Virus record (IMG/VR): IMGVR_UViG_3300022540_000463
Location: 1-46,768 of that record
Length of the DNA: 46,768 nucleotides
Strand: one strand, 5' to 3'
Source: a virus
Shown: in pieces, positions 1-18,788 of the stretch
Numbering within the stretch: position 1 is the first letter of the stretch
How the letters are laid out: each line of letters opens with the position of its first letter
Position numbers and translations under genes: made by a program
The notes under the pieces: model-generated
The model's database searches: none
What the model saw: only the letters and a program-made list of their open reading frames with translations
Told to the model about the DNA's origin: nothing

Positions 1-638
1 AATAATGACATGCGGTCATCTTCACCGAAATAATCTTCGATTTCATGCCATAAGAAGTTAGGTGCAACTACTAATGTTCCACGTTGCGGACGGACACGAA
101 ATTTCTTATTTCCAGCAAAGTAGTAATTTCGTTGCCAACGGGGATCGTGTAATACTAACTTTCCACCATCCTCTTCTGCAACATCAGTAAAATATAATAC
201 ACCAAATGCATCATCTCCATAGTGTGTATGCATATGCATGCGATCATTTGTTTCGGTGATATTAATATTTGCTGATTCTATTTCACACTCTATCTTAAAT
301 TTTTCAGGTCCAACATCTTCACCATACTTATTAGTTAATACATGGTCAGAATAGTTAACAGAGTTGGCGTGAGCTAGGTTTAGACCTTCTTGCTTAAGCA
401 TCTCACCCAACACTTTAATTTCAGGACAAGCTTCATGCACATATTCATTATCCAACATAGGCTTATCTACACCACCTATCCCTACCCAATCTGCTGATGA
501 TAATTTATGTCCGTGTTGAGCATAAAGATCATAATATTGAGCAAGTAGATAACTTCGTATGTTATCTAATGCTTCACTGGATATGTCCAACTGTTTAATT
601 AATACCTTCGTTGGATATATGTCATGTATATCATTCAT
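1..638 (-). CDS. 2OG-Fe(II) oxygenase-like protein, partial (runs off the left edge)
   Basis: The ATG lies at 636-638 and about 212 residues are readable before the window ends; the C-terminus is missing. An HTHYGDD stretch near residues 135-141 is followed by GVLYF, then GGKLVLHDPR, RGTLVVAPNFLWHEIEDY and an R near residue 208. This H...D...H...R order on a jelly-roll pattern fits 2-oxoglutarate/Fe(II) dioxygenases of the kind often seen in phages (TIGR02466-like). Such enzymes hydroxylate proteins or small molecules; the substrate is unknown. The gene starts directly after the stop of another oxygenase and ends an operon led by a radical SAM gene, so a role in the same protein-modification cassette is inferred. 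Confidence 0.65.
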   Translation of the reverse strand, partial: MNDIHDIYPTKVLIKQLDISSEALDNIRSYLLAQYYDLYAQHGHKLSSADWVGIGGVDKPMLDNEYVHEACPEIKVLGEMLKQEGLNLAHANSVNYSDHVLTNKYGEDVGPEKFKIECEIESANINITETNDRMHMHTHYGDDAFGVLYFTDVAEEDGGKLVLHDPRWQRNYYFAGNKKFRVRPQRGTLVVAPNFLWHEIEDYFGEDDRMSL

Positions 639-1145
639 TTAGGAGACTACGAAATCAAAACTTGCTTGTCTGCGGGTAATGCTTGCTTTGTCTGCTCGGT
701 GAAAAAATCCAGCGGCTTGATTTAATAAGATTAGATCACCACGTTTAGGATAAAATGTTTCTTCACCACCTTCCCACTTAAATGCTACGACACCACCAGT
801 CTCTTCATCTTGGTCATCAAAGTATAATAAGAAAAATGCATTCATTCCTTCAAATCCATCATTGTGCCACATTGCAGTATCAGCATCAACACCTTCCCAT
901 AAAATGTATTTTACGAAATTTGCTTCATCAAACATTCTATCCAGATATTTCGTTTTAAGATACTCAGCAACGATATCCATTTGCATTTTTACGTTACTTG
1001 GTAGATCATTTTTGCTATTGTCACGTAGCATTTCTTCGTTATATTTTAATTTAAAACTATCAACATCAATCAAATCTGCGACATTCTCTCCACGTAAGAA
1101 TACGAATCCTTTTTCATTAAAATCTTTTAACCATTGTTCAACCAT
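639..1145 (-). CDS. 2OG-Fe(II) oxygenase-like protein (prolyl-hydroxylase type)
   Basis: The 168-aa protein carries the Fe(II) facial triad pattern: H94-N-D96 in MWHNDGF, a distal H149 in GFFHRAD, and R158/R159 as candidate 2OG-binding residues, with GGVVAFKWEGG and KRGDLILLN strands between them as in prolyl-4-hydroxylase-like folds. It would use 2-oxoglutarate, O2 and Fe(II) to hydroxylate an unknown target. Its ATG overlaps the stop of the radical SAM gene upstream (TAATG), so the two are translationally coupled. The next gene is a second, different oxygenase. The family call rests on motif spacing only. Confidence 0.65.
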   Translation of the reverse strand: MVEQWLKDFNEKGFVFLRGENVADLIDVDSFKLKYNEEMLRDNSKNDLPSNVKMQMDIVAEYLKTKYLDRMFDEANFVKYILWEGVDADTAMWHNDGFEGMNAFFLLYFDDQDEETGGVVAFKWEGGEETFYPKRGDLILLNQAAGFFHRADKASITRRQASFDFVVS

Positions 1146-2200
1146 TATTTTTTCTCCTCAACATACTTAAATACTTCTTTAAATACACAACCTTTAATAT
1201 CACGTACTAAATCTTTATAGTCATTGTGTATGAAGCAACTAAAAGTACAACGATTATAATATTCACACTGGAAACAATTACGATCATCCATAAAATTATG
1301 GATTATATTTGATCCTGTTAGGTTTTCTGTTTTTGCATTCTTTAATATAACTGCTCCTGAACATCCTTTTGGTACACTATTGTCAGCAAATATAGTAAAA
1401 CTATTTCCGCGAGTACAAGGCATTGAGTTCATGGTTGTGGAGTCATCCGTAAATGCAGACATGTTGATACAATCAGGATACTTGTCAGCAAGTATCTTAT
1501 AAAATTCTAATAATTCTGACTCGGCAGGCATCATTGCTTTTAATTTATCATCACCAGGAAGCAGGTGGTCCCAATCACAATCAAATTGACTATACAAATA
1601 GTCAAAGTATTCATCACCATCAATTATTTTTTGCATACTTTGCTTTGTCATTGTGAGACTAATCATTCTGATGTATGGTGCTATGATATCGATGTTTGCT
1701 TTAAACAGTTCGAATTGAGCAGGGTTAAACCTACCAATTGGATCGTAACTTACAGCAACTTTTAGGTCATAAGTTTTACAAAATTTTACAACACGGTCGA
1801 TTTGTTCAAATACTAAATTTGTAATAAAATTGAATTCAATTTTCCTGTGAGGACATCTCTCTCTAACCATCAGCATGAATTCACCATAGTAAGTTAAGAA
1901 TCCTTGATCAATCAATTCATCTTGAAATAACTCACCACCCATCATATGGATGTGAAATTCTTCAGATGGATTTAATTCGATAAATGTACAAATAGGATCA
2001 ACTTTTGATTTTATTTCTTCCCAAGATACACCAGTTCTATCTTCATGATCTTGTGGACAGAATACACACTGCATATTGCAGTGATCGAAAAGGTTAACAA
2101 TTATTTCTGCATATGATGGTATCTTGGAACGAATAAGGTCATATCCAATATGTTTGTTGTGTTCTATAATTTCTTCGGGTGTTGTATGTGTTGTTTTCAT
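1145..2200 (-). CDS. Radical SAM/SPASM-type protein 1
   Basis: The radical SAM cluster motif CNMQCVFC (C41, C45, C48) binds a 4Fe-4S cluster and S-adenosylmethionine; a GGE motif follows in MHMMGGELFQ. The C-terminal third is rich in cysteine (CTRG, GCSGAV, CFQCEYYNRC, TFSC, GCVF), matching the auxiliary-cluster layout of SPASM or twitch domains used by peptide and protein maturases. I start it at the ATG at 2200 (351 aa); a longer TTG-started frame to 2257 would run through its promoter. It has its own early promoter with a strong dyad. A second radical SAM gene lies at 4697-5746, and a Cys-His-Xaa-Ser protein lies between them. The substrate is not known. Confidence 0.85.
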   Translation of the reverse strand: MKTTHTTPEEIIEHNKHIGYDLIRSKIPSYAEIIVNLFDHCNMQCVFCPQDHEDRTGVSWEEIKSKVDPICTFIELNPSEEFHIHMMGGELFQDELIDQGFLTYYGEFMLMVRERCPHRKIEFNFITNLVFEQIDRVVKFCKTYDLKVAVSYDPIGRFNPAQFELFKANIDIIAPYIRMISLTMTKQSMQKIIDGDEYFDYLYSQFDCDWDHLLPGDDKLKAMMPAESELLEFYKILADKYPDCINMSAFTDDSTTMNSMPCTRGNSFTIFADNSVPKGCSGAVILKNAKTENLTGSNIIHNFMDDRNCFQCEYYNRCTFSCFIHNDYKDLVRDIKGCVFKEVFKYVEEKK

Positions 2201-2216
2201 AGTATTATAACCAATA

Positions 2217-2249
2217 AGGGGGTATATGTACTGATAGTATATACCCCCT
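2217..2249. repeat. Perfect 11-bp inverted repeat around the promoter -10
   Basis: AGGGGGTATAT (2217-2227) is the exact reverse complement of ATATACCCCCT (2239-2249), with an 11-nt spacer. One arm covers part of the spacer and -10, the other the first transcribed bases. This suits an operator for a dimeric repressor or a hairpin. There is no T-tract, so a simple terminator is less likely. Confidence 0.6.
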
Positions 2250-2264
2250 ACAAACAAATGTCAA
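2236..2264 (-). promoter_or_regulatory. Early sigma70-like promoter of the radical SAM 1 gene
   Basis: On the minus strand TTGACA (2259-2264) is followed after 17 bp by TATACT (2236-2241). The predicted start near 2229 leaves a leader of about 29 nt with only a weak ribosome site before the ATG at 2200. Confidence 0.75.
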
Positions 2265-2274
2265 CATGATTTTC

Positions 2275-3423
2275 CTAAAGGGTGTAGGGTTTTATCTCTT
2301 TCTTTTTACCCTTGTTGTAAGAATATATAACATGATCAACAAGATAATTGTTTACTGTTCCAGAATCGATTGAGCTATAAGAACCTGCTGCATGTTCTTT
2401 GGTTGTTTCAAATTTGATAATAGTAGTTAATGCTTTATCACTTAATTTTGCTGGTTGCAACAATGGAATAAAGTCAAGCTTCATAATATCAGATTTAATA
2501 AATGAGTAGAATTTTTCTTCATCCCACACTGTACCAACAATTGTTCCATATTCACGAACAAGTTCAATATCTTCTGCAGTGAATCCAGCAAAGTTAATAG
2601 ACCCAGATGATGTTGGTGTAGATAATCCTTTCTTTGTCCAAATTTCAGGTTTAAAGAAAACTTGAACAAGAGGAGATGTATCATTGATTATTTCATTTAC
2701 ATTGGAAAACGTATAAGTCTCAGATGTTTTAAGTTTTTCTTGGAGCTGTGGATGTAATACATGAACGAGAAGAATTTCTTTTAACTCATACAGATATTTT
2801 TCTAAATCCTTGAACAATAATGGTTTGATTCTAGTTTTAAGCTCTTCTTTACAGCTTCCGTTATACATGTATGAAGCAAATAAGTATTCAATACTAACGT
2901 GAGGTTTGATTGATGTTATAAAAGCCGCCGCATCTTTTTTATCGAATACAACGCTGTTAAATATATCTTCGAATTGTGATAATTCTACAACATCTGCTCT
3001 ACTAAAATCAGCAATTACACTAGATAAAGAAAATTTAGAATTACTAAACATTTCTTCTTTAAACACATATGATTCTATAATATCGTACACATTTTTAGCA
3101 CTTACATGCTTGAGTAACATTTTAAACCATGTCGCAACAATCTTTATGAATGTTTGTTCATCGGCAAAAATTATTGTTGTTGTATCTGTAGAGTCGACAC
3201 GAGTAGATAAATTTGTTAACATATCAAGTAGTGTAGAGTATACTGCTCCTTCACCTACCACATCTTCTAGAGTATGTCCGTGGGCGATTAATTCACCATA
3301 AGAAACTTTGTCCAATACATCAAGCATTGGAACACCACAAGTTTCTGATATTACAATCCTATCATAATCGATACTGATTTTTGTATCGAACTCAATGTAT
3401 ACTTTTTTAAACAGGTGAAGCAT
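2275..3423 (-). CDS. Unknown protein of the radical SAM cassette (382 aa)
   Basis: No family recognised. I choose the ATG at 3423 (protein begins MLHLFKKVYIEF) because it has an excellent ribosome site (AAGGAG, 7 nt upstream) and overlaps the previous gene by only 17 nt; a longer frame to 3492 has no such support. The protein looks soluble and mostly helical, with no signal peptide or obvious catalytic motif. It has few cysteines, so it is unlikely to bind iron-sulfur clusters. Sitting between the HxS-tail protein and radical SAM 1 in the same orientation, it could be a recognition, partner or structural protein of that cassette; this is inference from position. Confidence 0.7.
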   Translation of the reverse strand: MLHLFKKVYIEFDTKISIDYDRIVISETCGVPMLDVLDKVSYGELIAHGHTLEDVVGEGAVYSTLLDMLTNLSTRVDSTDTTTIIFADEQTFIKIVATWFKMLLKHVSAKNVYDIIESYVFKEEMFSNSKFSLSSVIADFSRADVVELSQFEDIFNSVVFDKKDAAAFITSIKPHVSIEYLFASYMYNGSCKEELKTRIKPLLFKDLEKYLYELKEILLVHVLHPQLQEKLKTSETYTFSNVNEIINDTSPLVQVFFKPEIWTKKGLSTPTSSGSINFAGFTAEDIELVREYGTIVGTVWDEEKFYSFIKSDIMKLDFIPLLQPAKLSDKALTTIIKFETTKEHAAGSYSSIDSGTVNNYLVDHVIYSYNKGKKKEIKPYTL

Positions 3424-4129
3424 TATGTATCTCCTTAATTGACTCCGTTCTTGCGTCAACATACTCATCACTTGAGAACATATTCTCAGCAATGCCGACA
3501 GTTAACAAAAACATTGGGTTGTTATCATTCGCCCAATAATTAAATAAGTTCGTTCCTTTGAACATATTACGCGTAAAATAGTTTTCATAGAAACGTAAAT
3601 CTTCTATTTTCACCGCTTCGTAGTAGCTATAAAATCCTGGATATTTTAATAAATTAACGAAATTAATTCCATTGGAGGTTGATGTATCATCATGTGGAAG
3701 GTTTTCAGCCCATTCTTTAAGTTCAGGAGATGATACAGTAAACAAATTATATGCGACTAAACTATCCAAAACACTTGCCCAATGTTCAACAATTTCTTTG
3801 TTGTTTTCAATGAAAGCAGTATATTTGTTACCTGTTAATATTCCTCGGTATTCTAACAATACATCGATCGCAACTTGTTCCAGTAATGGAACATTGACCA
3901 TAAATGTAGCATTGAAGTATGATGAAAGTAATTGTTTAAACTCATCGCTATCTTCATCTATTGAAATATCACAAGGCAAATCAAGATTACTAAGATATGT
4001 TAACAATTTAGTTTCTTTAAGTTTGCTATTCGTATAATCTATAGTATATGAAATGCTTTTATCTGAAAAGTATTTCTTTAAGTCGTTGATATCAATTGGT
4101 GCTATAGTATTAATGTTATTTGAGCTCAT
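3407..4129 (-). CDS. Unknown protein downstream of the HxS-tail gene (240 aa)
   Basis: No family recognised. The ATG at 4129 follows the HxS-tail protein stop by 3 nt and the 3' end overlaps the next gene by 17 nt, so it is in one operon with both. It is an acidic, aromatic-rich soluble protein with stretches such as FYENYFTRNMFKG and LFNYWANDNNPMFLLTVG. No membrane segment, no Cys cluster and no nucleotide-binding loop are visible. It may be a partner protein of the modification cassette or an unrelated virion or early protein; the sequence alone does not decide. Confidence 0.65.
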   Translation of the reverse strand: MSSNNINTIAPIDINDLKKYFSDKSISYTIDYTNSKLKETKLLTYLSNLDLPCDISIDEDSDEFKQLLSSYFNATFMVNVPLLEQVAIDVLLEYRGILTGNKYTAFIENNKEIVEHWASVLDSLVAYNLFTVSSPELKEWAENLPHDDTSTSNGINFVNLLKYPGFYSYYEAVKIEDLRFYENYFTRNMFKGTNLFNYWANDNNPMFLLTVGIAENMFSSDEYVDARTESIKEIHNASPV

Positions 4130-4132
4130 ATC

Positions 4133-4696
4133 TTATCTCCTACCACGTGATCCGTGACAACTTGAGTGACAACTTGCGTGACAAACATTCGTTTGAATTG
4201 TTTGTGTTGTATTTCTTCTAGTGTTATAATCTGTTTGTAAATTTGTAAAAAATGTTTGTAAACTTGTGACAGATACATCATTGTCAACTAAAACAGTACC
4301 ACCACTAGTTGATATTGATTGTCTGTATCCTGTGTTCAAGTGAGACACTTGTGTGTCATCAAACACAATACCTGGTGTAGGACGGGTACCTGTATTACCA
4401 CCACCACCAAGAACAAATAATATTGCTCGGCATTTTCTGATGTTTGTATACAAAGCTGTTTCTGTGTTCAATGCACTAACGATTGAAGCAGCAAGTATTT
4501 CAGGACCTGATAAACTTGCACCAGTAACAACTATTGGTTGCCCAGCTGTGGTTCCACCAAATTCTGCAATGTTCATTTCTGTGAATGGTTTGACATTTGT
4601 CCCCCACACAATACTTGCATTTGCAGTTGCAGTTACATAGTCTGCAAATCTATCAACTATGTTTTGTTTGTTGACATCGCCTGTTAAAGTTGCCAT
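4133..4696 (-). CDS. Candidate modified protein with C-terminal (Cys-His-Xaa-Ser)x3 tail
   Basis: This 187-aa protein has a folded-looking body (about residues 1-165; Gly/Thr-rich, including FVLGGGGNTGTRPTPG) and ends in CHASCHSSCHGSRGRR (residues 172-187). The tail holds three exact Cys-His-Xaa-Ser repeats and a basic end. His-Xaa-Ser repeats are the hallmark of HxsA substrates in HXS peptide-modification systems, which use two radical SAM enzymes. Here one radical SAM gene abuts directly upstream (its stop at 4697, this ATG at 4696) and another lies 2 kb downstream. The tail could instead bind metal through Cys and His. The body resembles no family I can name. The substrate role is inference. 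Confidence 0.6.
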   Translation of the reverse strand: MATLTGDVNKQNIVDRFADYVTATANASIVWGTNVKPFTEMNIAEFGGTTAGQPIVVTGASLSGPEILAASIVSALNTETALYTNIRKCRAILFVLGGGGNTGTRPTPGIVFDDTQVSHLNTGYRQSISTSGGTVLVDNDVSVTSLQTFFTNLQTDYNTRRNTTQTIQTNVCHASCHSSCHGSRGRR

Positions 4697-5746
4697 TTAA
4701 AATTCTCCCTTGACATAAATTGTTGTTGGAATTGTGGTTTTTAGATGTTTCATTAATGATTTGGGTGCTCCACAAATTCCACTTTGCCACTCGAGTTGAT
4801 GACAATCACCCCCACAATACCCAAACACCTCACAATTGTAGCAGCTTTCGTTCATTTGACGTTCACATGCTATATTATTAATTCGTTGTGTACTATTTAT
4901 CAGTTCTTCAATACTTTGTTCCATGTTACCAAAATGGTCTTCTGGAGCAGAATTTGGACACCCTGCTATTGTTCCATCTGCATTAATAGTAAACAGCTTT
5001 TCCTCACAGTCTCTGCAGAATGTTCCAGATCTTATGAATCCTGTCTCAAATTTTGCAAGTATATTTTCAAGAAAATCATTTGATACCCAATCTCGTGCAT
5101 CATGTTCAATTGTTTGATGATACATCTTTAAAAACCAAGCATCCTGCTCTAAATTTGTCGGGAATATTTCTGGGTGAAGTGTTGCTGACCCATTTAATGT
5201 TAATCGTTCAAGATCCATTTCTTTTACACCGAGATCTTTAGCAAATTTTAATAAATCAATTGGTTCTATATTCAATAGTTGTGTTGTAACACTGACAAAT
5301 AATTTTACTGTAACACCTTGATCGATTAATGTTTTTACATTTTTCTTCCACAAATCACTTTGTTTTTCATTTGCAAACCTGATAGTTGGATCCCAACTTG
5401 TTGCTATTCTATTCCCTAATGGTCCTTTAATAAAGTCAATAATTTCATCTGTTAACTTAAATGTTAGGTTGGATGTAGCTCCCCAGCTCATTGATGGCCA
5501 CAAACCGTTACAACATTCCCAACATTCTTGCATTGTTTCTAATGGTACCAAAAATGGTTCACCACCATGAAACTCAAGATGAATGTGATTAATATCAGGA
5601 GCGTACTCAGCTAATCTTGTAATCCACTTTATGGTTTTGTTGTGATCCCAGTAAATTTTTCTACCATTGGTTCCACTCGTGAAGCAATGTGAGCAATTAA
5701 GATTACAAGTTTCCGTAGTCTTGAGGTAAACCATTATCTCTTTCAT
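4697..5746 (-). CDS. Radical SAM/SPASM protein 2 (anSME-like maturase)
   Basis: The 349-aa protein starts with TETCNLNCSHCFTSG, giving the radical SAM triad C14, C18, C21, followed by GGEP (61-64). The C-terminus is a clear SPASM pattern: CRDCEEKLFTINADGTIAGC, then CYNCEVFGYCGGDC and GICGAPK, expected to bind two auxiliary 4Fe-4S clusters. Family members include anaerobic sulfatase-maturating enzymes and RiPP maturases that make Cys or Ser oxidations, thioethers or C-C crosslinks. It overlaps the cupin gene upstream by ATGA and directly abuts the gene for the CHxS-tailed protein, its most likely target. The chemistry is not inferable from sequence. Confidence 0.9.
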   Translation of the reverse strand: MKEIMVYLKTTETCNLNCSHCFTSGTNGRKIYWDHNKTIKWITRLAEYAPDINHIHLEFHGGEPFLVPLETMQECWECCNGLWPSMSWGATSNLTFKLTDEIIDFIKGPLGNRIATSWDPTIRFANEKQSDLWKKNVKTLIDQGVTVKLFVSVTTQLLNIEPIDLLKFAKDLGVKEMDLERLTLNGSATLHPEIFPTNLEQDAWFLKMYHQTIEHDARDWVSNDFLENILAKFETGFIRSGTFCRDCEEKLFTINADGTIAGCPNSAPEDHFGNMEQSIEELINSTQRINNIACERQMNESCYNCEVFGYCGGDCHQLEWQSGICGAPKSLMKHLKTTIPTTIYVKGEF

Positions 5747-6246
5747 TTTAATCCTATGCTCAATGCAATCGTTCCTGCTATGCTGAATACACGATGAAGA
5801 TATCCTTTTGGTATATCAACAAACTGACCAGGATTCAGTATATATTTAGAGTTACGTACACACACTATTTTTTTGCCTGTTAATACTAATAACTTAACAT
5901 TAACATTGTCATTGTGCCACTTAAAACTATATCCTGTTTTGTTTGATTTAAACACGTGTACATCTTGCACACGTGACAAGATTGGTTTTATTGCTACTTT
6001 CAGATTCTTGTTCTTTTCAAATCCTTCAATTTTTACAACAGGGAAATCATTAAGTTTAGTTATACATGTTCTATAACTTATAAAATCTACTGCCTTAGAA
6101 TCTAAAGCACCCTTTGAAGAGTGCTTATCAATTACTATGAGGTTTCCACTTATAAACGTTTCGTATTCAAACGTCAAGTCGTGAATATCTTTTAACAAAT
6201 ATTTTGTTGAGTTGGCATTAAACCATTTATTTTGGTGCAACGTCAC
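5743..6246 (-). CDS. Cupin/JmjC-like Fe(II) oxygenase
   Basis: The C-terminal half of this 167-aa protein has a cupin core: WHND (H111, D113), VLTGKKIVCV, NPGQFVDIPKGYLHRV (distal H151) and a final IALSIGL strand. HxD...H on this scaffold is typical of JmjC/cupin_4 protein hydroxylases that act on Asn, Arg, His or Lys side chains with Fe(II) and 2-oxoglutarate. The N-terminal half has no recognised motif. It overlaps FolE2 by 20 nt upstream and radical SAM 2 by 4 nt downstream, so it is expressed with the modification cassette. A purely structural cupin cannot be excluded. Confidence 0.6.
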   Translation of the reverse strand: MTLHQNKWFNANSTKYLLKDIHDLTFEYETFISGNLIVIDKHSSKGALDSKAVDFISYRTCITKLNDFPVVKIEGFEKNKNLKVAIKPILSRVQDVHVFKSNKTGYSFKWHNDNVNVKLLVLTGKKIVCVRNSKYILNPGQFVDIPKGYLHRVFSIAGTIALSIGLK

Positions 6247-7333
6247 TATGTTTCCACACTACGGCGATTGCATTCCATGGATGTAAAGATTCTTCATGTG
6301 AAGTGCTGATAGTAAAGTCAGAAATTTTACCTTCATCGTACCACTCATCTAATGCACTATATACTAAGCGGACTGCATCTTCACTGAATAGTAAATTAGC
6401 ACCATTCAATTCTGCAAATGCTTGTTCATCTCTACGTTTAACAACAACCTGTACTTCTGTTGGAATCTTTTCACGGTGAAGTTCAATCAAATCTTCAATC
6501 CAAACAATGTTACCTGGATCGAATTCTACTGTTGTTGTCATAATTGAACGTTGACTGTGAGCATTAGCTGCAGCATCTCTTAATTCTGTAGCATTATGAG
6601 CTAATTCAAAAGAGCAAGGACAAGTTGAACTGTATGTGTAATTAGTTGTTAAGTAAAACCTGAACTCTTTATAGTCTGGATCTTCATCAGAAGCGTGAAG
6701 ATAAAAATCTGGTTTCTTGTGGTAACGACCTTCAAGTGTCACGTTATATGCAATGTGTCCTTCTACCTTACGGAGGCTAACAGTTGATCCATCTTCAAGA
6801 ACTTCATATAGTCCTTTTTCAATTTCTTCTTTTGTTAAAGGCAAGCGAGTACGAAGTGCTTTCTGAGTCCAAGGATACTTAAACCGTAACTTACAGTATG
6901 CAGAGTTGCTGCCTTGCTTATATGCCATTTCTTCTAATGTTGACTTAATGCCATCAATAGTAAGGTGGTCCTTAATGTTATCATGCATTAACAAATACAA
7001 ACGACTTAAATTTAATCCCTTTGCTTCTGGATCATCTAGTGAGCAATACAAAGATGCTTCTGCTTGAAGGACTTGAGTGGCACCATCTCGACGCATAACA
7101 GTAATAGGTAAGTCTACTGGTGCAATTCCAACTTTTTGCAATGCAACTTTCTTACCAGGAATGATTGGGTCCGTTTGTGGGTCTGGTAATGAAGAATCTA
7201 ATGGATAGAAGTCTTTATCATATCTAAAGATTAAATCATCCATCTTTTCTGCATAATCAGTATAATTATATTCGCCAGTTGGTGCTTGATGATCTTTGCA
7301 GTTGTGTTCGGGTTTGTCGCAATGTTCAGACAT
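6227..7333 (-). CDS. folE2: GTP cyclohydrolase IB (FolE2/MptA family)
   Basis: FolE2 converts GTP to 7,8-dihydroneopterin triphosphate, the entry step to folate and to queuosine or archaeosine-type 7-deazaguanines. Recognisable blocks in this 368-aa protein are VGIAPVDLPITV (68-79), AEASLYCSLDDPEAKGLNLSR (91-111), STCPCS (236-241, metal-binding cysteine region), HSQRS (259-263), QAFAELNGANLLFSEDA (304-320) and HPWNA near residue 351. The N-terminus has an extra acidic, His/Cys-containing lead. It sits between the P-loop kinase and the cupin gene. No other queuosine gene is visible in the window, so whether it feeds DNA or tRNA modification or folate is open. Confidence 0.85.
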   Translation of the reverse strand: MSEHCDKPEHNCKDHQAPTGEYNYTDYAEKMDDLIFRYDKDFYPLDSSLPDPQTDPIIPGKKVALQKVGIAPVDLPITVMRRDGATQVLQAEASLYCSLDDPEAKGLNLSRLYLLMHDNIKDHLTIDGIKSTLEEMAYKQGSNSAYCKLRFKYPWTQKALRTRLPLTKEEIEKGLYEVLEDGSTVSLRKVEGHIAYNVTLEGRYHKKPDFYLHASDEDPDYKEFRFYLTTNYTYSSTCPCSFELAHNATELRDAAANAHSQRSIMTTTVEFDPGNIVWIEDLIELHREKIPTEVQVVVKRRDEQAFAELNGANLLFSEDAVRLVYSALDEWYDEGKISDFTISTSHEESLHPWNAIAVVWKHSDVAPK

Positions 7334-7358: not shown

Positions 7359-7940
7359 TTATTTGTGATTATACGTTCTATCAAGAATAAATTCAACACG
7401 GTCATCTATATCCGCCATTGTTACTTGATAAAGTGATTTTTCATTTGGGGCCATTAACCATGTATATTTTTTCATTACAAGGTCAACCATAGTACTGTAG
7501 TGTTGATTTGACCCTCTTACTCCATCATGTTCAACATCAAATATACCACCTTCTATATAAAAAACTTTGGCGTATGATTGTTGGTACGATTTACAAGATT
7601 CGTAGTAGCCATTTAACCACTCACTATTAATATTATCTTTTCCTAAACTAACCAATGCATATGTAAACAAGTCAGCGTATGTTCTTTCAGTAAACCACAG
7701 TTCATCTGATTGCATTGCATGCGCTTCATCTTTATATTTTCGAGCAATAATTTCGTCTTGAAATCGTAAAGTCAAATCGCGATTGCTATTAACTTGTTCA
7801 AGAGTAACTCCCCAATCTGTTAAGATAGAACGAGAAGTTTTTCGTGAGACTATGTTATGACCTAATTCTTCTAATTTTTTTAGAACAGTGCTTTTACCAG
7901 CACCCTGTGAACCTGATATTGCTATTAACATATTTTGCAC
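7359..7940 (-). CDS. P-loop nucleotide kinase-like ATPase (AAA_28-like)
   Basis: A Walker A loop, GSQGAGKST, lies at residues 9-17 of this 193-aa protein. SRKTSRSIL and ERTYADLFTY follow in the positions of the substrate-binding and Walker B-like segments, and DVEHDGVRGSN resembles the lid of small phage kinases (AAA_28, NadR or dNMP kinase-like). It probably phosphorylates a nucleotide or nucleoside; the exact substrate is unclear. It is the first gene after a strong early promoter and FolE2 follows 25 nt later, which hints at purine or 7-deazaguanine metabolism. Confidence 0.7.
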   Translation of the reverse strand: MQNMLIAISGSQGAGKSTVLKKLEELGHNIVSRKTSRSILTDWGVTLEQVNSNRDLTLRFQDEIIARKYKDEAHAMQSDELWFTERTYADLFTYALVSLGKDNINSEWLNGYYESCKSYQQSYAKVFYIEGGIFDVEHDGVRGSNQHYSTMVDLVMKKYTWLMAPNEKSLYQVTMADIDDRVEFILDRTYNHK

Positions 7941-15346: not shown

Positions 15347-17683
15347 TTACGTTATTAAGAACTCAACAACTGCCCCTGATGGGACTGCTGTTCTGAATAC
15401 GATAGCATATGCGATTATACCTGCTGATGCTTGAATATACGATATTGAAGGTGAACCAACAAGGTCAGCCTCATAATAAGCACCATCGTTTGTTACTTGT
15501 GTGATGTCTCCTGGATAGTCAGGGAAAATATTATTATAATCATATATAGGCAAACTAACAGTTGCACCGACAGCACCCATTGCAGTAAATAAATCAACAT
15601 CTGTGATGCTTATTGCTGAACCGTTTCCTGAAGTATCTGAGAACACAAAAATACCAACCCAACGAGGATCATATATTGCTGTTGCTCCTGTTACTTGAGC
15701 ATTAATTTGGTCTATGATATCCTGAACTGTTTGTACTTGCGATCCCGTAACATTTACAGTTTGAGGAGTTTGTGGACTACCAGTTGCTTGTCCATCAACT
15801 GCAACAGTAAATGAATATGCTGTCGCATCATCTGGCAAACCAGTTGCTGCAGTTGGTGAAACGTTAAACTCTCTTCTAAAATATATTGTTTGACGAGCAC
15901 GCTGATCGGCATATTGTTTAATACCATTTATAAATACTTGCAATCTATTAAATCCAGAAATATATTCTTCATCATTATCAATTAAGAATTCTGTTTGTGG
16001 TGCAACTGGACGATGAATTTGTTGTAATATTATTTGATTACCAAGTTCTCTTGAAGTTTTACTACCTATTTCTGAACTAAGTTGCTCAACTATAACATCA
16101 ATCGTAGTGTCAAGTTGTTGTGGACTACCACCTGGAACAAGTGCATCACGTAATACTGAATCAACTACAGTATGTGTTACATCAGTTGATGGATGAGTAT
16201 GACTCAAGTCTACTTGTATAGGAACTGGAAGTGGCGAACCACCATCAGATGTTTGAAGATCTAATTGATAGATTGATGAATCCCAAGCTGCACTAATTAA
16301 TACACCATCAGCTCCACCAAGAGCATAAGTGGCAATAGCTTGGTGTACAAAACTACAGGTTGCAATTTGTGTCGTGGTGTTCGTAGCAGGTGTTGCTGTT
16401 GGCGCTATAGGTGTTCCAGTTAATGATGGAGAAGCAAGAGGAGCTGCACCAGCCACATCCGCAATTAATATATTTCTATTTTTCCATTGTCCTGCTGGAC
16501 TACCAACATTGTCATAATATAAAAATTCATCGTGCGATGGAGTAGGTACATAAACATCTAATAAATCATCTATTGAAGCTGGAGTTCCTCCTGATACAAT
16601 AGCTACCACATCATCAACATATTTTTTGGAGGCTGCTGCAGTATCACCAGATGGAAGAGCTGGAAGTCCAAGAACTTCATTGTTACTCTGTATTTGAATA
16701 TTACCAGCAAATGTGCTTGTATCATCAGCATCCGAAACACCAACAGTTAATACTGTCACCCCTACAGAATTCTTAACTACAAAACTACTAAAAAGGGAGT
16801 TGCCAGATTGCATCTCCCAAGTAAATCCGTCTGAACTTAATATTAGTGTTGCACCATCTGCAAGTGGAGAGCCAGCAACATTCCCTATCAAACCTTTTGT
16901 TGCATCAATATTAATATTTGCACCAGTCATTGTTAAATCACCAGTCATTGTATCACCAGTTTGGAGAACATAGTTTCCACCTGATGATGCCCACATACTT
17001 CCATTCCAAACTTTTAAATCGGTGTTTGCAGTATCATACCACAAGTCACCATCAACGGGGGAAGTAGGTGCTGTAGTAGATGCAAATGTGCTACTGGTTA
17101 CAGAAACCCAAGCTTCGCCATTGTACACTTTAAGAGATTTTTCAGGAGTGGCATTTAACGTTATTGGATCAGTACTTCCATTAGAACCCGAGTGAAGAAC
17201 TGTTACCCATGTGTTGGTTAAAGGATGGTCAGTGATAAGTACTCGTCTTTTAAGAGTTAAATTAAGAGTATCAAACCAATATATTCCATCAGCGACTGCA
17301 CCTGGATCGGTGCCTTTAGCGTATGTTACTGTTAATGAATCCCAACTAGACGTACTATCATTCCAACGATACCAACCAGAAGTAGTTAAAGTGGTTTGCC
17401 AATATTCTCTTCGTGAAAACCAAACTTGCCCAGAAATTGGGAGTACAGGAACTGTTGCTCCAGAGAAATTTTCAAGTAGATGAAGAACGTTTTCAGCGAT
17501 TCGTTCGCCGTAATTTGCAGAGCCCCTTCCGTATATTAGTAAACTTGTATCAGCACTAACTGCAGATGAATCAAGTTGCCCAGAGATTGGGAATGTACGA
17601 CCATTTGCCGTATATGGGCTAACTATAAACGAAGACTTAGATGGGTCCGTAAAATGTATAATGTACTGTTCTGGTTGAGCCAT
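15347..17683 (-). CDS. Tail-fibre-like protein, paralogue 2 (778 aa)
   Basis: It begins with the shared module (YIIHFTDPSKSSFIVSPYT, LLIYGRGSANYGE, LHLLENFSG, ISGQVWF), then two repeats of a 'TSPVDGDLWYDTANTDLKVWNG' type, an AASKKYVDD fibre motif near residue 360, and a long C-terminus with LQVFINGIKQYADQRA and a final beta domain ending AVPSGAVVEFLIT. These are features of T4-like long or side fibres. Six GSP tripeptides occur at loop positions. It is the first gene after the late promoter at 17714-17721. The receptor-binding part is most likely the divergent C-terminal half. Confidence 0.8.
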   Translation of the reverse strand: MAQPEQYIIHFTDPSKSSFIVSPYTANGRTFPISGQLDSSAVSADTSLLIYGRGSANYGERIAENVLHLLENFSGATVPVLPISGQVWFSRREYWQTTLTTSGWYRWNDSTSSWDSLTVTYAKGTDPGAVADGIYWFDTLNLTLKRRVLITDHPLTNTWVTVLHSGSNGSTDPITLNATPEKSLKVYNGEAWVSVTSSTFASTTAPTSPVDGDLWYDTANTDLKVWNGSMWASSGGNYVLQTGDTMTGDLTMTGANINIDATKGLIGNVAGSPLADGATLILSSDGFTWEMQSGNSLFSSFVVKNSVGVTVLTVGVSDADDTSTFAGNIQIQSNNEVLGLPALPSGDTAAASKKYVDDVVAIVSGGTPASIDDLLDVYVPTPSHDEFLYYDNVGSPAGQWKNRNILIADVAGAAPLASPSLTGTPIAPTATPATNTTTQIATCSFVHQAIATYALGGADGVLISAAWDSSIYQLDLQTSDGGSPLPVPIQVDLSHTHPSTDVTHTVVDSVLRDALVPGGSPQQLDTTIDVIVEQLSSEIGSKTSRELGNQIILQQIHRPVAPQTEFLIDNDEEYISGFNRLQVFINGIKQYADQRARQTIYFRREFNVSPTAATGLPDDATAYSFTVAVDGQATGSPQTPQTVNVTGSQVQTVQDIIDQINAQVTGATAIYDPRWVGIFVFSDTSGNGSAISITDVDLFTAMGAVGATVSLPIYDYNNIFPDYPGDITQVTNDGAYYEADLVGSPSISYIQASAGIIAYAIVFRTAVPSGAVVEFLIT

Positions 17684-17713
17684 AGCTTCCTCGCATAAAA
17701 TAGACTTTTTATG

Positions 17714-17721
17714 TATTTATG
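17714..17721 (-). promoter_or_regulatory. T4-type late promoter (CATAAATA)
   Basis: CATAAATA on the minus strand, 30 nt upstream of the ATG at 17683, with GAGGAAG as ribosome site. Confidence 0.75.
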
Positions 17722-17750
17722 ATAGGTCAATTCTTGTTCAGTAATAAAAA

Positions 17751-17770
17751 ATAGCGTCCGAAGACGCTAT
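17751..17770. terminator. UUCG-tetraloop intrinsic terminator
   Basis: On the minus strand ATAGCGTC-TTCG-GACGCTAT forms an 8-bp stem with a stable C(UUCG)G loop, followed by TTTTTATT. An A-run on the other side lets the stem extend and could make it work in both directions. It closes the 330-aa fibre gene. Confidence 0.9.
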
Positions 17771-17795
17771 TTTTGTTGGCATGATCAAACTCATA

Positions 17796-18788
17796 TTATG
17801 AGTATTGTGCTGGGAATATTATGTTCCAAGTACTAAACGCATATATTTTTATTTGTGTGTTGAGTGAATCAACCCAAATATCACCATCTTTTGCAGTACC
17901 AGGTGTGCTTGATGAAGTTGTTATCAACGGCTTGGCATCAACGTATGCTTTTGTGGCAGCGTGCAATGTGTTTGTCGGAGCGCCAGAAAGTGTAAGTGCA
18001 CCCGTCATTGTACTGCCAGCTTTTGCAACTTTTGCATCCAATTGTGTTTGTATGCTTGAGGTTACACCACTAATATCTGTTGATATTAATCCTCTATTTT
18101 CCCAAGTAGTCCCATTGAAATATAAAACCTCACCAGTTACAGCAGATGATGTTACATCATCTTCAACATCTGACAATTCCCATAATTCATTATTACTACT
18201 GATTAATCCATCAACATATTCTTTAGAAGCTGCTCCAGTTGCAGATGGTGACGCTGGTAATCCAAGAACTTCACCACCTCCAGCAAATGTAATGTTAGCA
18301 GCAGAGTCCATCGTATCACCAGATTTCAATACATAGTGATCAGCTGTTGATGTCCAAACCATTGCATAATATACTTTAAGTTGAGTTGCGACCGTATCAA
18401 ACCACAAATCCCCATCTTGTGGATTTGGTGGTGCGGTAGCTGATGAGAAAACACCACCAGCAGAAACCCAGTTAGTCCCATCAAACATCATTAATTTATT
18501 GGTAGTTGAGTTAAACCATAGTTGTCCTTTTACAGAATATGCTGGATCAAAAAATGCTGGATCTGGTGCTGTTGTTGCAGGGCTTCCACCCAATTCAGGA
18601 CTTGCGAAATTTTCTAATATCTTGAGGAAATTTTCATTTACGCCTTCGCCATATTGTAGAGAACCTGCGCCATATAAACGAAGATTGGTATTTTGTGTTA
18701 CAGATCCTGGTCCGTCTAGCTTGTTCGGACTGATTCTAAAATTGCCATTCGCTGGATCTGTGTGGTCAATGATGTAAATGGCTGTCAT
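17796..18788 (-). CDS. Tail-fibre-like protein, paralogue 3 (330 aa)
   Basis: This shorter member has the shared N-terminal module (YIIDHTDPANGNFRISPNKL, LRLYGAGSLQYGEG, FLKILENFASP, KGQLWFNSTTNKLMMFDG), one repeat (PPNPQDGDLWFDTVATQLKVY), two fibre motifs (GAASKEYVDG and LHAATKAYVDA) and a C-terminus that again repeats GTAKDGDIWVDSLNTQIKIY. It ends without the long tip domains of its paralogues, so it may be a truncated or alternative fibre or an adaptor. It has its own late promoter and a strong terminator, so it is a one-gene transcription unit. Confidence 0.8.
   Translation of the reverse strand: MTAIYIIDHTDPANGNFRISPNKLDGPGSVTQNTNLRLYGAGSLQYGEGVNENFLKILENFASPELGGSPATTAPDPAFFDPAYSVKGQLWFNSTTNKLMMFDGTNWVSAGGVFSSATAPPNPQDGDLWFDTVATQLKVYYAMVWTSTADHYVLKSGDTMDSAANITFAGGGEVLGLPASPSATGAASKEYVDGLISSNNELWELSDVEDDVTSSAVTGEVLYFNGTTWENRGLISTDISGVTSSIQTQLDAKVAKAGSTMTGALTLSGAPTNTLHAATKAYVDAKPLITTSSSTPGTAKDGDIWVDSLNTQIKIYAFSTWNIIFPAQYS

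Follow-up and report, generated by a model that had tools for sequence, protein, structure and literature searches.

A phage gene cassette combining radical SAM enzymes with a conserved C-terminal Cys-His tag, often located beside tail-fibre genes

The virus record IMGVR_UViG_3300022540_000463, possibly a fragment, was analysed over its whole length of 46,768 bases (hereafter, the window). Its left end carries a minus-strand cassette composed, in order, of genes encoding a cupin, the radical S-adenosylmethionine (SAM) enzyme rSAM1, a 187-aa (amino acid) tagged protein, the proteins UnkA and UnkB, a second radical SAM enzyme (rSAM2), and two 2-oxoglutarate (2OG)-oxygenase-like proteins (Table 1). 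Every gene named in the original prediction, which had been made from the letters alone, was present in this cluster, and its anatomy was right, including the three Cys-His-Xaa-Ser repeats at the C-terminus of the 187-aa protein, whose tail reads CHASCHSSCHGSRGRR. The cupin and rSAM1 genes overlap by 4 bases, rSAM1 directly abuts the tagged gene, and UnkA and UnkB overlap by 17 bases. Because the record stops at base 1, the cassette of the window is cut; in its relatives, it usually continues with the genes rSAM3 and rSAM4. The two radical SAM proteins are different, as had been noted. In rSAM1 of the window and six phages, residues C14, C18, C21, C247, G258, C263, C302, C305, C311, C315, and C325 were invariant in all seven aligned sequences, and rSAM1 exceeded the cut-off for the SPASM domain TIGR04085 (33.0 bits vs. 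27); the CX3CX2C motif together with the SPASM cysteines is what we take to mark radical SAM/SPASM enzymes. rSAM2, for which the searches were run with a version three residues longer at its start, has SPASM-like cysteines. The three probable Fe(II) oxygenases of the original prediction each scored below the Pfam cut-offs; one of them matches phrog_81, and the HxD...H triad was invariant in 72 of 72 aligned cupins.

Table 1. Features of the cassette and its adjoining gene in the window.
Feature	Position	Strand	Remarks
2OG-Fe(II) oxygenase-like protein, incomplete at record end	3..638	-	PF13759 25.9 bits, below cut-off 27; phrog_81 '2OG-Fe(II) oxygenase' 1.8e-14
2OG-Fe(II) oxygenase-like protein, 168 aa	639..1145	-	PF13640 19.9 bits, below cut-off 27; phrog_19592 (function not known)
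rSAM2, 351 aa, ATG 2200	1145..2200	-	second radical SAM, SPASM-like cysteines CX2CX5CX3C; phrog_1802 2.2e-28
UnkB, 382 aa, ATG start	2275..3423	-	fast-evolving conserved partner
UnkA, 240 aa	3407..4129	-	conserved partner; phrog_20767 (1.2e-58)
Tagged protein, 187 aa	4133..4696	-	variable alpha/beta body (residues 1-171) and tag CHASCHSSCHGSRGRR (residues 172-187); presumed substrate
Tag DNA, 16 residues and stop codon	4133..4183	-	same tag form used for the DNA pattern searches
rSAM1, 349 aa, radical SAM/SPASM enzyme	4697..5746	-	CX3CX2C; CX10GX4C, CX2CX5CX3C, C; phrog_1802 5.2e-66
Cupin/JmjC-like protein with HxD...H triad	5743..6246	-	start uncertain: GTG 6246 overlaps folE2; Pfam scores below cut-offs
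FolE2-type GTP cyclohydrolase	6227..7333	-	directly upstream of cupin; 190 bits; present in 1 of 87 loci

The cassette is spread far beyond the window. When rSAM1, rSAM2, or UnkA was used as a tblastn query against 50,697 phage records, the same seven records were retrieved each time, namely Atu_ph07 (two records), Phosso, FLC6, FLC8, SURPRISE13, and pPa_SNUABM_DT01, and in all six distinct phage loci, the gene after rSAM1 has the tag at its end (proteins of 178-306 aa). The tagged protein of the window found one weak match only (E 0.3) in these records because the bodies of the phage tagged proteins are so unlike its own. In IMG/VR, the rSAM1 alignment matched 394 stretches, 361 of which encode a relative; the best 80 of these 361 were kept and, together with the six phage loci and the window, formed a set of 87 loci anchored on rSAM1/UnkA, in which only the window had been chosen by its tag. 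The cupin occurred in 87 of them, an open reading frame (ORF) of the tag family in 86, UnkA in 81, UnkB in 74, and a 2OG oxygenase in 61. The usual order was cupin, rSAM1, tagged protein, UnkA, UnkB, rSAM2, rSAM3, and rSAM4, with the 2OG oxygenases variably placed. With the window excluded, 72 of 86 loci had no more than 400 bp between the rSAM1 stop and the start of the tagged ORF. This ORF lay farther along or had a different start in L011, L018, L019, L031, L064, and L081; it was split in L054, L055, L058, and L062 into an N-terminal piece of 308 aa with a stretch rich in Gly, ending in RYRFLFVS, and a C-terminal piece of 140 aa retaining the tag; and in L046, L073, L075, and L079, the contig ended inside or just before it. 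The original prediction had described one phage-borne functional unit with the repeat tail as its likely substrate and had named a lack of co-occurrence in related phages as grounds for rejecting it; this comparison was run, and the genes do co-occur across phages.

All 83 loci whose tagged gene is complete (85 ORFs) carry the tag in the form CHxx-CHxx-CHxx-R[G/S]RR-COOH. These 85 ORFs of the rSAM1/UnkA-anchored loci contain 36 distinct tags in which the Cys, the His, and three Arg never vary; the x residues are variable, and the three Ser positions are occupied by Ser in 35, 27, and 29 of the 36 and otherwise by Gln, Asn, or Ala. Codon use within the tag is about equal (TGT:TGC 127:125, CAT:CAC 134:118; window excluded). 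Since Cys and His are kept while their synonymous codons are used about equally, the constraint acts on the protein, and a chance origin of the tag is excluded. Outside this gene family, the tag did not occur among the 5,614 ORFs of these loci. An alignment of 83 rows, consisting of the window and 82 of 90 non-redundant homologues (eight divergent ones were left out), had nine invariant columns, C172, H173, C176, H177, C180, H181, R184, R186, and R187, all of them in the tag; as many of these rows came via the tag pattern, the rSAM1/UnkA-anchored set is the fair test. Given invariant Cys and His next to varying Ser, the Cys-His pairs, more than the Ser that gives the His-Xaa-Ser (HXS) systems their name, are likely to be the centre of the chemistry.

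The tag is conserved enough to be found by sequence alone. A DNA pattern for CHxxCHxxCHxxRxRR-stop, applied without homology, matched at least 120 viral stretches and 19 stretches in 84,980 prokaryote genomes, and the reversed pattern occurred in 0 of 12 tagged genomes tested. Among the matches listed, a radical SAM gene accompanied the tag ORF in 113 of 119 viral stretches; of the remaining six, three (L119, L187, and L199) are short stretches of 1.1-3.0 kb, two (L115 and L162) stop no more than about 300 bases past the tag, and L194 shows UnkA and UnkB homologues only. A tag ORF was present in 16 of the 19 genomic stretches, 15 of these 16 with a radical SAM gene and L217 ending at the tag, whereas L211 and L218, without a tag ORF, and L212, with a 29-codon frame only, were taken for chance pattern matches. 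The 38 viral tag loci among the matches listed that extend at least 6 kb downstream carry 3-7 rSAM genes each, and 36 of them carry UnkA, the two misses having the UnkA-like cluster c4. Among the 175 distinct tagged ORFs listed, some of them partial, three repeats were present in 174 and four in one, and 127 had no Cys ahead of the tag. The tagged protein with four repeats (CHSNCHSNCHSNCHTNRSRR) is from L118, a stretch that contains seven rSAM genes.

According to the AlphaFold2 model of the tagged protein of the window, the body is confidently predicted as an alpha/beta fold (mean pLDDT 86, pTM 0.81), and the tag lies loose after the last strand (pLDDT 55-63). The best relatives of the body in BFVD were unnamed or uncharacterised phage proteins, including a 296-aa protein of Atu_ph07 with the same length as gp170, the tagged protein of that phage. 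No PDB chain reached Z>=2 among 537 aligned to the body model, and the UnkA and UnkB profiles yielded no convincing solved structure by sequence. Between pairs of loci whose rSAM1 proteins are 60-70% identical, the median identities were 0.65 for rSAM1, 0.48 for UnkA, 0.27 for the tag body, 0.27 for the cupin, and 0.25 for UnkB, with the tag body diverging faster than rSAM1 and UnkA. The bodies also tolerate inserted stretches, Gly-rich in four loci. Two tandem tagged proteins were seen in L081 and L087, both belonging to the large class. A second, small class comprises 27 tag-anchored loci among the matches listed (24 viral and 3 from one Rhodobacteraceae bin), with tagged proteins of 124-140 aa that form tandem pairs in 24 of the 27. 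Downstream, these are usually followed by genes encoding an rSAM of about 400 aa, an unknown protein of 350-370 aa, a UnkA homologue, and more rSAMs; in the two small-class loci checked for farther neighbours, a major head protein and a tail tube (L148) and another major head protein (L189) were present. A blastn search with small-class DNA gave no match, and the small-class rSAM search gave a weak one to pPa_SNUABM_DT01 as its sole match. The large-body profile matched 5 of 41 small bodies (E<0.01) and the small-body profile reached two large bodies, and on account of this cross-matching the two classes may be remotely related.

Regarding the surroundings of the cassette, one upstream gene cluster recurs in 69 of the 87 loci, usually as the last gene before the cupin. 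The C-terminal part of its representative matches the tail-fibre family phrog_19602, and the clusters preceding this fibre gene match a DUF4815 protein and a virion structural family. A profile of the fibre C-terminal domain (fibC) was found in 73 of the 87 loci and, among the matches listed, in 69 of 137 tag-anchored loci, a group in which the visible upstream sequence is often short. When loci with at least 700 bases visible upstream were counted, a fibC gene ended within 300 bp upstream of the cassette in 69 of 86 rSAM1/UnkA-anchored loci and, among the matches listed, in 33 of 59 large and 24 of 24 small-class tag-anchored loci. In the window, tail-fibre-like genes are situated about 9-12.5 kb upstream (15347-18788). 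Among the 50,697 phage records, fibC was detected in 31. The same rare C-terminal domain is present in fibres of Campylobacter phage CP220 (L255) and PA5oct (L256); the 28-32 kb around these fibres contain no CHxxCHxxCH motif, and PA5oct gp360, encoded after the fibC fibre, did not convincingly resemble the tag body, its best stretch reaching 10 bits.

Further information on location comes from Atu_ph07, whose virion, as stated in the available text of its description, contained 131 proteins identified by electrospray ionization tandem mass spectrometry (ESI-MS/MS), the majority from coding sequences (CDS) 31-76, 170-215, and 284-329 (PMC6102473). RefSeq numbering agrees with that of the paper (gp181 baseplate wedge, gp198 portal, gp204 prohead core, gp215 major head), and the virion cluster CDS 170-215 starts exactly at gp170. 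As this cluster is bounded by the major capsid protein and the tagged protein, detection of gp170 in the virions is suggested. The virion location put forward in the original prediction is supported indirectly by this boundary and by the frequent tail-fibre neighbours.

The tag also occurs in bacteria. Among the 15 genomic loci in which a radical SAM gene accompanies the tag, eight lie on contigs titled Bdellovibrionaceae, Bacteriovoracaceae, Bacteriovorax, or Halobacteriovoraceae, L224 is a ninth bacterial locus, and the other six resemble viral contigs by layout. Five of the nine, seen in wider context, are situated among ordinary chromosomal genes, as judged by eye. In L237 (Bacteriovorax), L239 (Halobacteriovoraceae), and L241, the cassette edge holds a gene, 2-8 kb from the tag gene, whose product has Peptidase_S74 as its C-terminal domain (48-60 bits, cut-off 22), and two of these products have a pilin methylation motif above the cut-off; no S74 protein was noticed in L242 and L243, which were inspected by eye, without a Pfam scan there. 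Bdellovibrio S74 proteins include trimeric adhesive fibres, according to the available text of PMC10769870, and the presence of S74 proteins near the tag gives no more than a hint that it may serve adhesive fibres in predators too. L237, L239, and L241 have in common a neighbour of 184-209 aa. Homology of this neighbour to the fibre C-terminal domain was considered and rejected, with 12.5 bits at best (hmmsearch --max, three sequences), an hhalign probability of 19%, and no support at genome scale.

Among the genes adjoining the cassette in the window, FolE2 was dropped as a core component; with an occurrence in 1 of 87 loci, it is probably not core. The Chiangmai-type phages L004-L006 carry two dihydrofolate reductase genes within the cassette instead of FolE2. 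Farther upstream in the window, positions 7359-7940 encode an AAA_28/thymidylate-kinase-like protein.

We consider it fairly probable that these genes are dedicated to the post-translational modification of a virion protein associated with the fibre, with the radical SAM enzymes modifying its tag. What was computed directly is that the tag is conserved, that the genes form a unit, that tag and radical SAM genes occur together, and that fibre genes adjoin the cassette in most, not all, loci. SPASM-type enzymes introduce thioether, C-C, or aldehyde modifications on peptides, and the 2OG proteins, together with the cupin triad, suggest a hydroxylation or oxidation dependent on Fe(II). The tagged body would probably be held at or near the tail-fibre end, exposing a flexible, invariant C-terminal tag, while UnkA and UnkB may present or scaffold the substrate, and the SPASM-type radical SAM enzymes and Fe(II) oxygenases would act on the Cys-His pairs. 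The most likely products would be cross-links and oxidations, such as Cys-to-backbone or Cys-His bonds. Most economically, the three Cys-His pairs would be remodelled step by step while carried on a folded protein, which would afterwards be incorporated into the fibre, where the finished basic, metal-capable tip could serve host adsorption.

Several observations weigh against this reading. The 2OG gene was traced in just 61 of the 87 loci, many of those loci being incomplete. No fibC fibre ended within 1.5 kb upstream in 15 of 86 rSAM1/UnkA-anchored loci, including the window, or in 23 of 59 large tag-anchored loci among the matches listed; in 4 of the 15 (L001, L004-L006), another tail or virion-structural gene ended within that distance. 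The 31 phage records with fibC include just 3 of the seven cassette records, the other 4 having no fibC match, and 28 records of Campylobacter (17) and Pseudomonas (11) phages that do not belong to those seven; fibC records without the cassette and cassette records without fibC both count against an exclusive pairing. At genome scale, the fibC profile recognised 0 of 9 Bacteriovorax-type neighbours. Divergence of the tag body does not outpace that of the cupin or UnkB, and no PDB chain with Z>=5 was found among 999 aligned to the UnkA model, a result that excludes nothing. The presence of gp170 in the virion is read from a cluster boundary, and it is by inference that we describe the tag as modified, name the bonds, and assign it a part in adsorption.

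Alternative explanations were weighed against the same evidence. One is that the tag forms an unmodified metal-binding tip in which the CH pairs coordinate Fe or Zn, and that the rSAM and oxygenase genes serve something else. HxH motifs coordinate metal at known spike tips, and the Cys and His of the tag are good ligands that are invariant, C-terminal, and often encoded beside fibre genes; against this, the tag was rarely found without a radical SAM gene in the viral and genomic stretches described above, the exceptions being mostly short or incomplete, and several rSAM genes are kept near it, which makes this explanation unlikely. We hold it no less improbable that the tagged protein is the precursor of a ribosomally synthesized and post-translationally modified peptide (RiPP), with the body as leader and the tag cleaved and released as a small modified peptide acting as a toxin, signal, or metallophore. 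The tag does resemble a core repeat, and the best full-length models for rSAM1 are peptide maturases (PapB 51.8 and DynA 51.1 bits), but the supposed core is invariant and the leader variable, the body of the window is modelled as a well-folded domain, gp170 opens the virion cluster of Atu_ph07, and no protease or transporter was present among the traced families, although not every ORF was identified. Also improbable, by a slightly larger margin, is that the cassette targets the neighbouring fibre or a host protein, in which case the tagged protein would be a chaperone or carrier and its tag a guide for the enzymes. The adjacency to fibres would fit, as would the position after the fibre gene, which resembles that of T4 gp38, likewise encoded after a fibre gene; nevertheless, the fibre C-terminal domain had no invariant Cys or His in a 28-row alignment limited to this domain.

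We consider it very improbable that the cassette is a genuine HXS (HxsA-D) system on a phage, the label given to it in the original prediction. His-Xaa-Ser does occur three times in the tag of the window, two rSAM genes flank the substrate region, and the best NCBIfam match of rSAM2 is HxsB, weakly. Compared with the models themselves, however, both enzymes scored far below the cut-offs: against HxsB (TIGR03978, cut-off 370 bits), rSAM1 reached 30.9 and rSAM2 20.7 bits, and against HxsC (TIGR03977, cut-off 267.9 bits), rSAM2 reached 16.2 bits, while HxsC was outside the best 25 matches of rSAM1. The tagged protein of the window had no match at E<=1 to the HxsA (TIGR03979) and HxsA2/A3 models, nor did three other tagged proteins match the HxsA models, and UnkA and UnkB had no NCBIfam match at E<=1, HxsD lacking a positive control. 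HxsB was above the cut-off in 0 of 11 tagged genomes, all metagenome-assembled by their titles, and no scanned phage protein came close to the HXS cut-offs. As a control, the HXS locus of Bordetella sp. LUAb4, a genome reached through a chance match of the tag pattern, gave 333 bits for HxsC and 159.6 bits for HxsA (cut-off 121.65), both above the cut-off. Its HxsA has Cys-free repeats of period 3 (HRSHSSHRSHSSHSSHYS), whereas the tag has period 4 with Cys; in the tag, the Ser often gives way to Asn or Ala, in contrast to the unvarying Cys and His. Judged by these profile scores, the cassette is not a member of HXS.

On a wider scale, and with considerably more reserve, we propose that a class of phages and some predatory-type bacteria may make an enzyme-built tip in which CHxxCHxxCHxxR[G/S]RR is converted, through several radical SAM enzymes and Fe(II) oxygenases, into a cross-linked, metal-holding, or covalently reactive group on interchangeable bodies at the ends of adhesive fibres. 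If true, this would be an adhesion chemistry common to phages and Bdellovibrio-like predators and a previously undescribed means of equipping a virus particle; we know of no other virion part built by radical SAM enzymes. Carriers of the tag include jumbo phages from several lineages, shorter phage contigs, and a small number of bacterial genomes. For phage radical SAM genes, hitherto catalogued as unknowns or as auxiliary metabolism, the tag offers a likely substrate. Should it prove to be modified in virions, this would represent an unexplored post-translational chemistry of virus particles, allow the role of accessory operons to be tested, and provide enzymologists with many orthologous multi-enzyme pathways.

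When compared to published phages, radical SAM genes have been reported in high numbers. A TARA marine T4-like genome has 12, interpreted as Fe-S metabolism (PMC5332604); a pelagimyophage host-recognition cluster in the tail-fibre region holds rSAM cassettes (PMC7029224); and Campylobacter phage CP220 has 11 with a role unknown (PMC2853527). The available texts of these reports read the genes as Fe-S or host metabolism or leave the matter open, and mention no substrate tag. No Campylobacter phage was among the rSAM1 matches at E<=1e-5 in the 50,697 phage records. In the available text on FLC6, the cupin, rSAM, and 2OG genes are listed as similar to proteins of phage RSF1 (PMC8066314), and in that on SURPRISE13, the same gene types are listed as accessory or of unknown function (PMC11898562); the main text of a jumbo-phage overview (PMC7824862) does not contain the word 'radical'. 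No description of the tag or of the substrate of its enzymes was found in the available open-access literature, subscription papers and preprints being outside the search. Regarding bacteria, the available text of PMC10769870 describes the Bdellovibrio MAT fibres as phage-fibre-like trimeric adhesins for prey recognition, many with S74, and 'radical' is absent from its main text; the three bacterial tag loci with S74 proteins, two of which have the pilin methylation motif, are likened to them by the S74 domain only.

Among known enzymes, the name of the CXXX-repeat target radical SAM maturase TIGR04115 implies a SPASM enzyme with a Cys repeat of period 4 as its target, as here, and rSAM1 scored 28.2 bits against this model (cut-off 350). 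The best full-length NCBIfam matches of rSAM1, namely PapB, DynA, and the anaerobic sulfatase maturase (49.6 bits), have the SPASM cysteine pattern in common with it, and its scores were far below their cut-offs of 340 (PapB, NF047865), 450, and 349.45 bits, respectively. Formylglycine formation of the sulfatase type, with the substrate motif C/S-x-[P/A]-x-R, was rejected on the strict motif C-x-[P/A]-x-R: the C-to-R spacing fits, but of the 36 distinct tags, one has A and none has P as the third residue of the last repeat. With HXS, the cassette shares a repeat substrate containing His-x-Ser and two radical SAM enzymes per locus, and it may work in a comparable way; it differs in the period-4 Cys-His repeat at the extreme C-terminus, the larger number of rSAMs together with Fe(II) oxygenases, and the phage fibre context.

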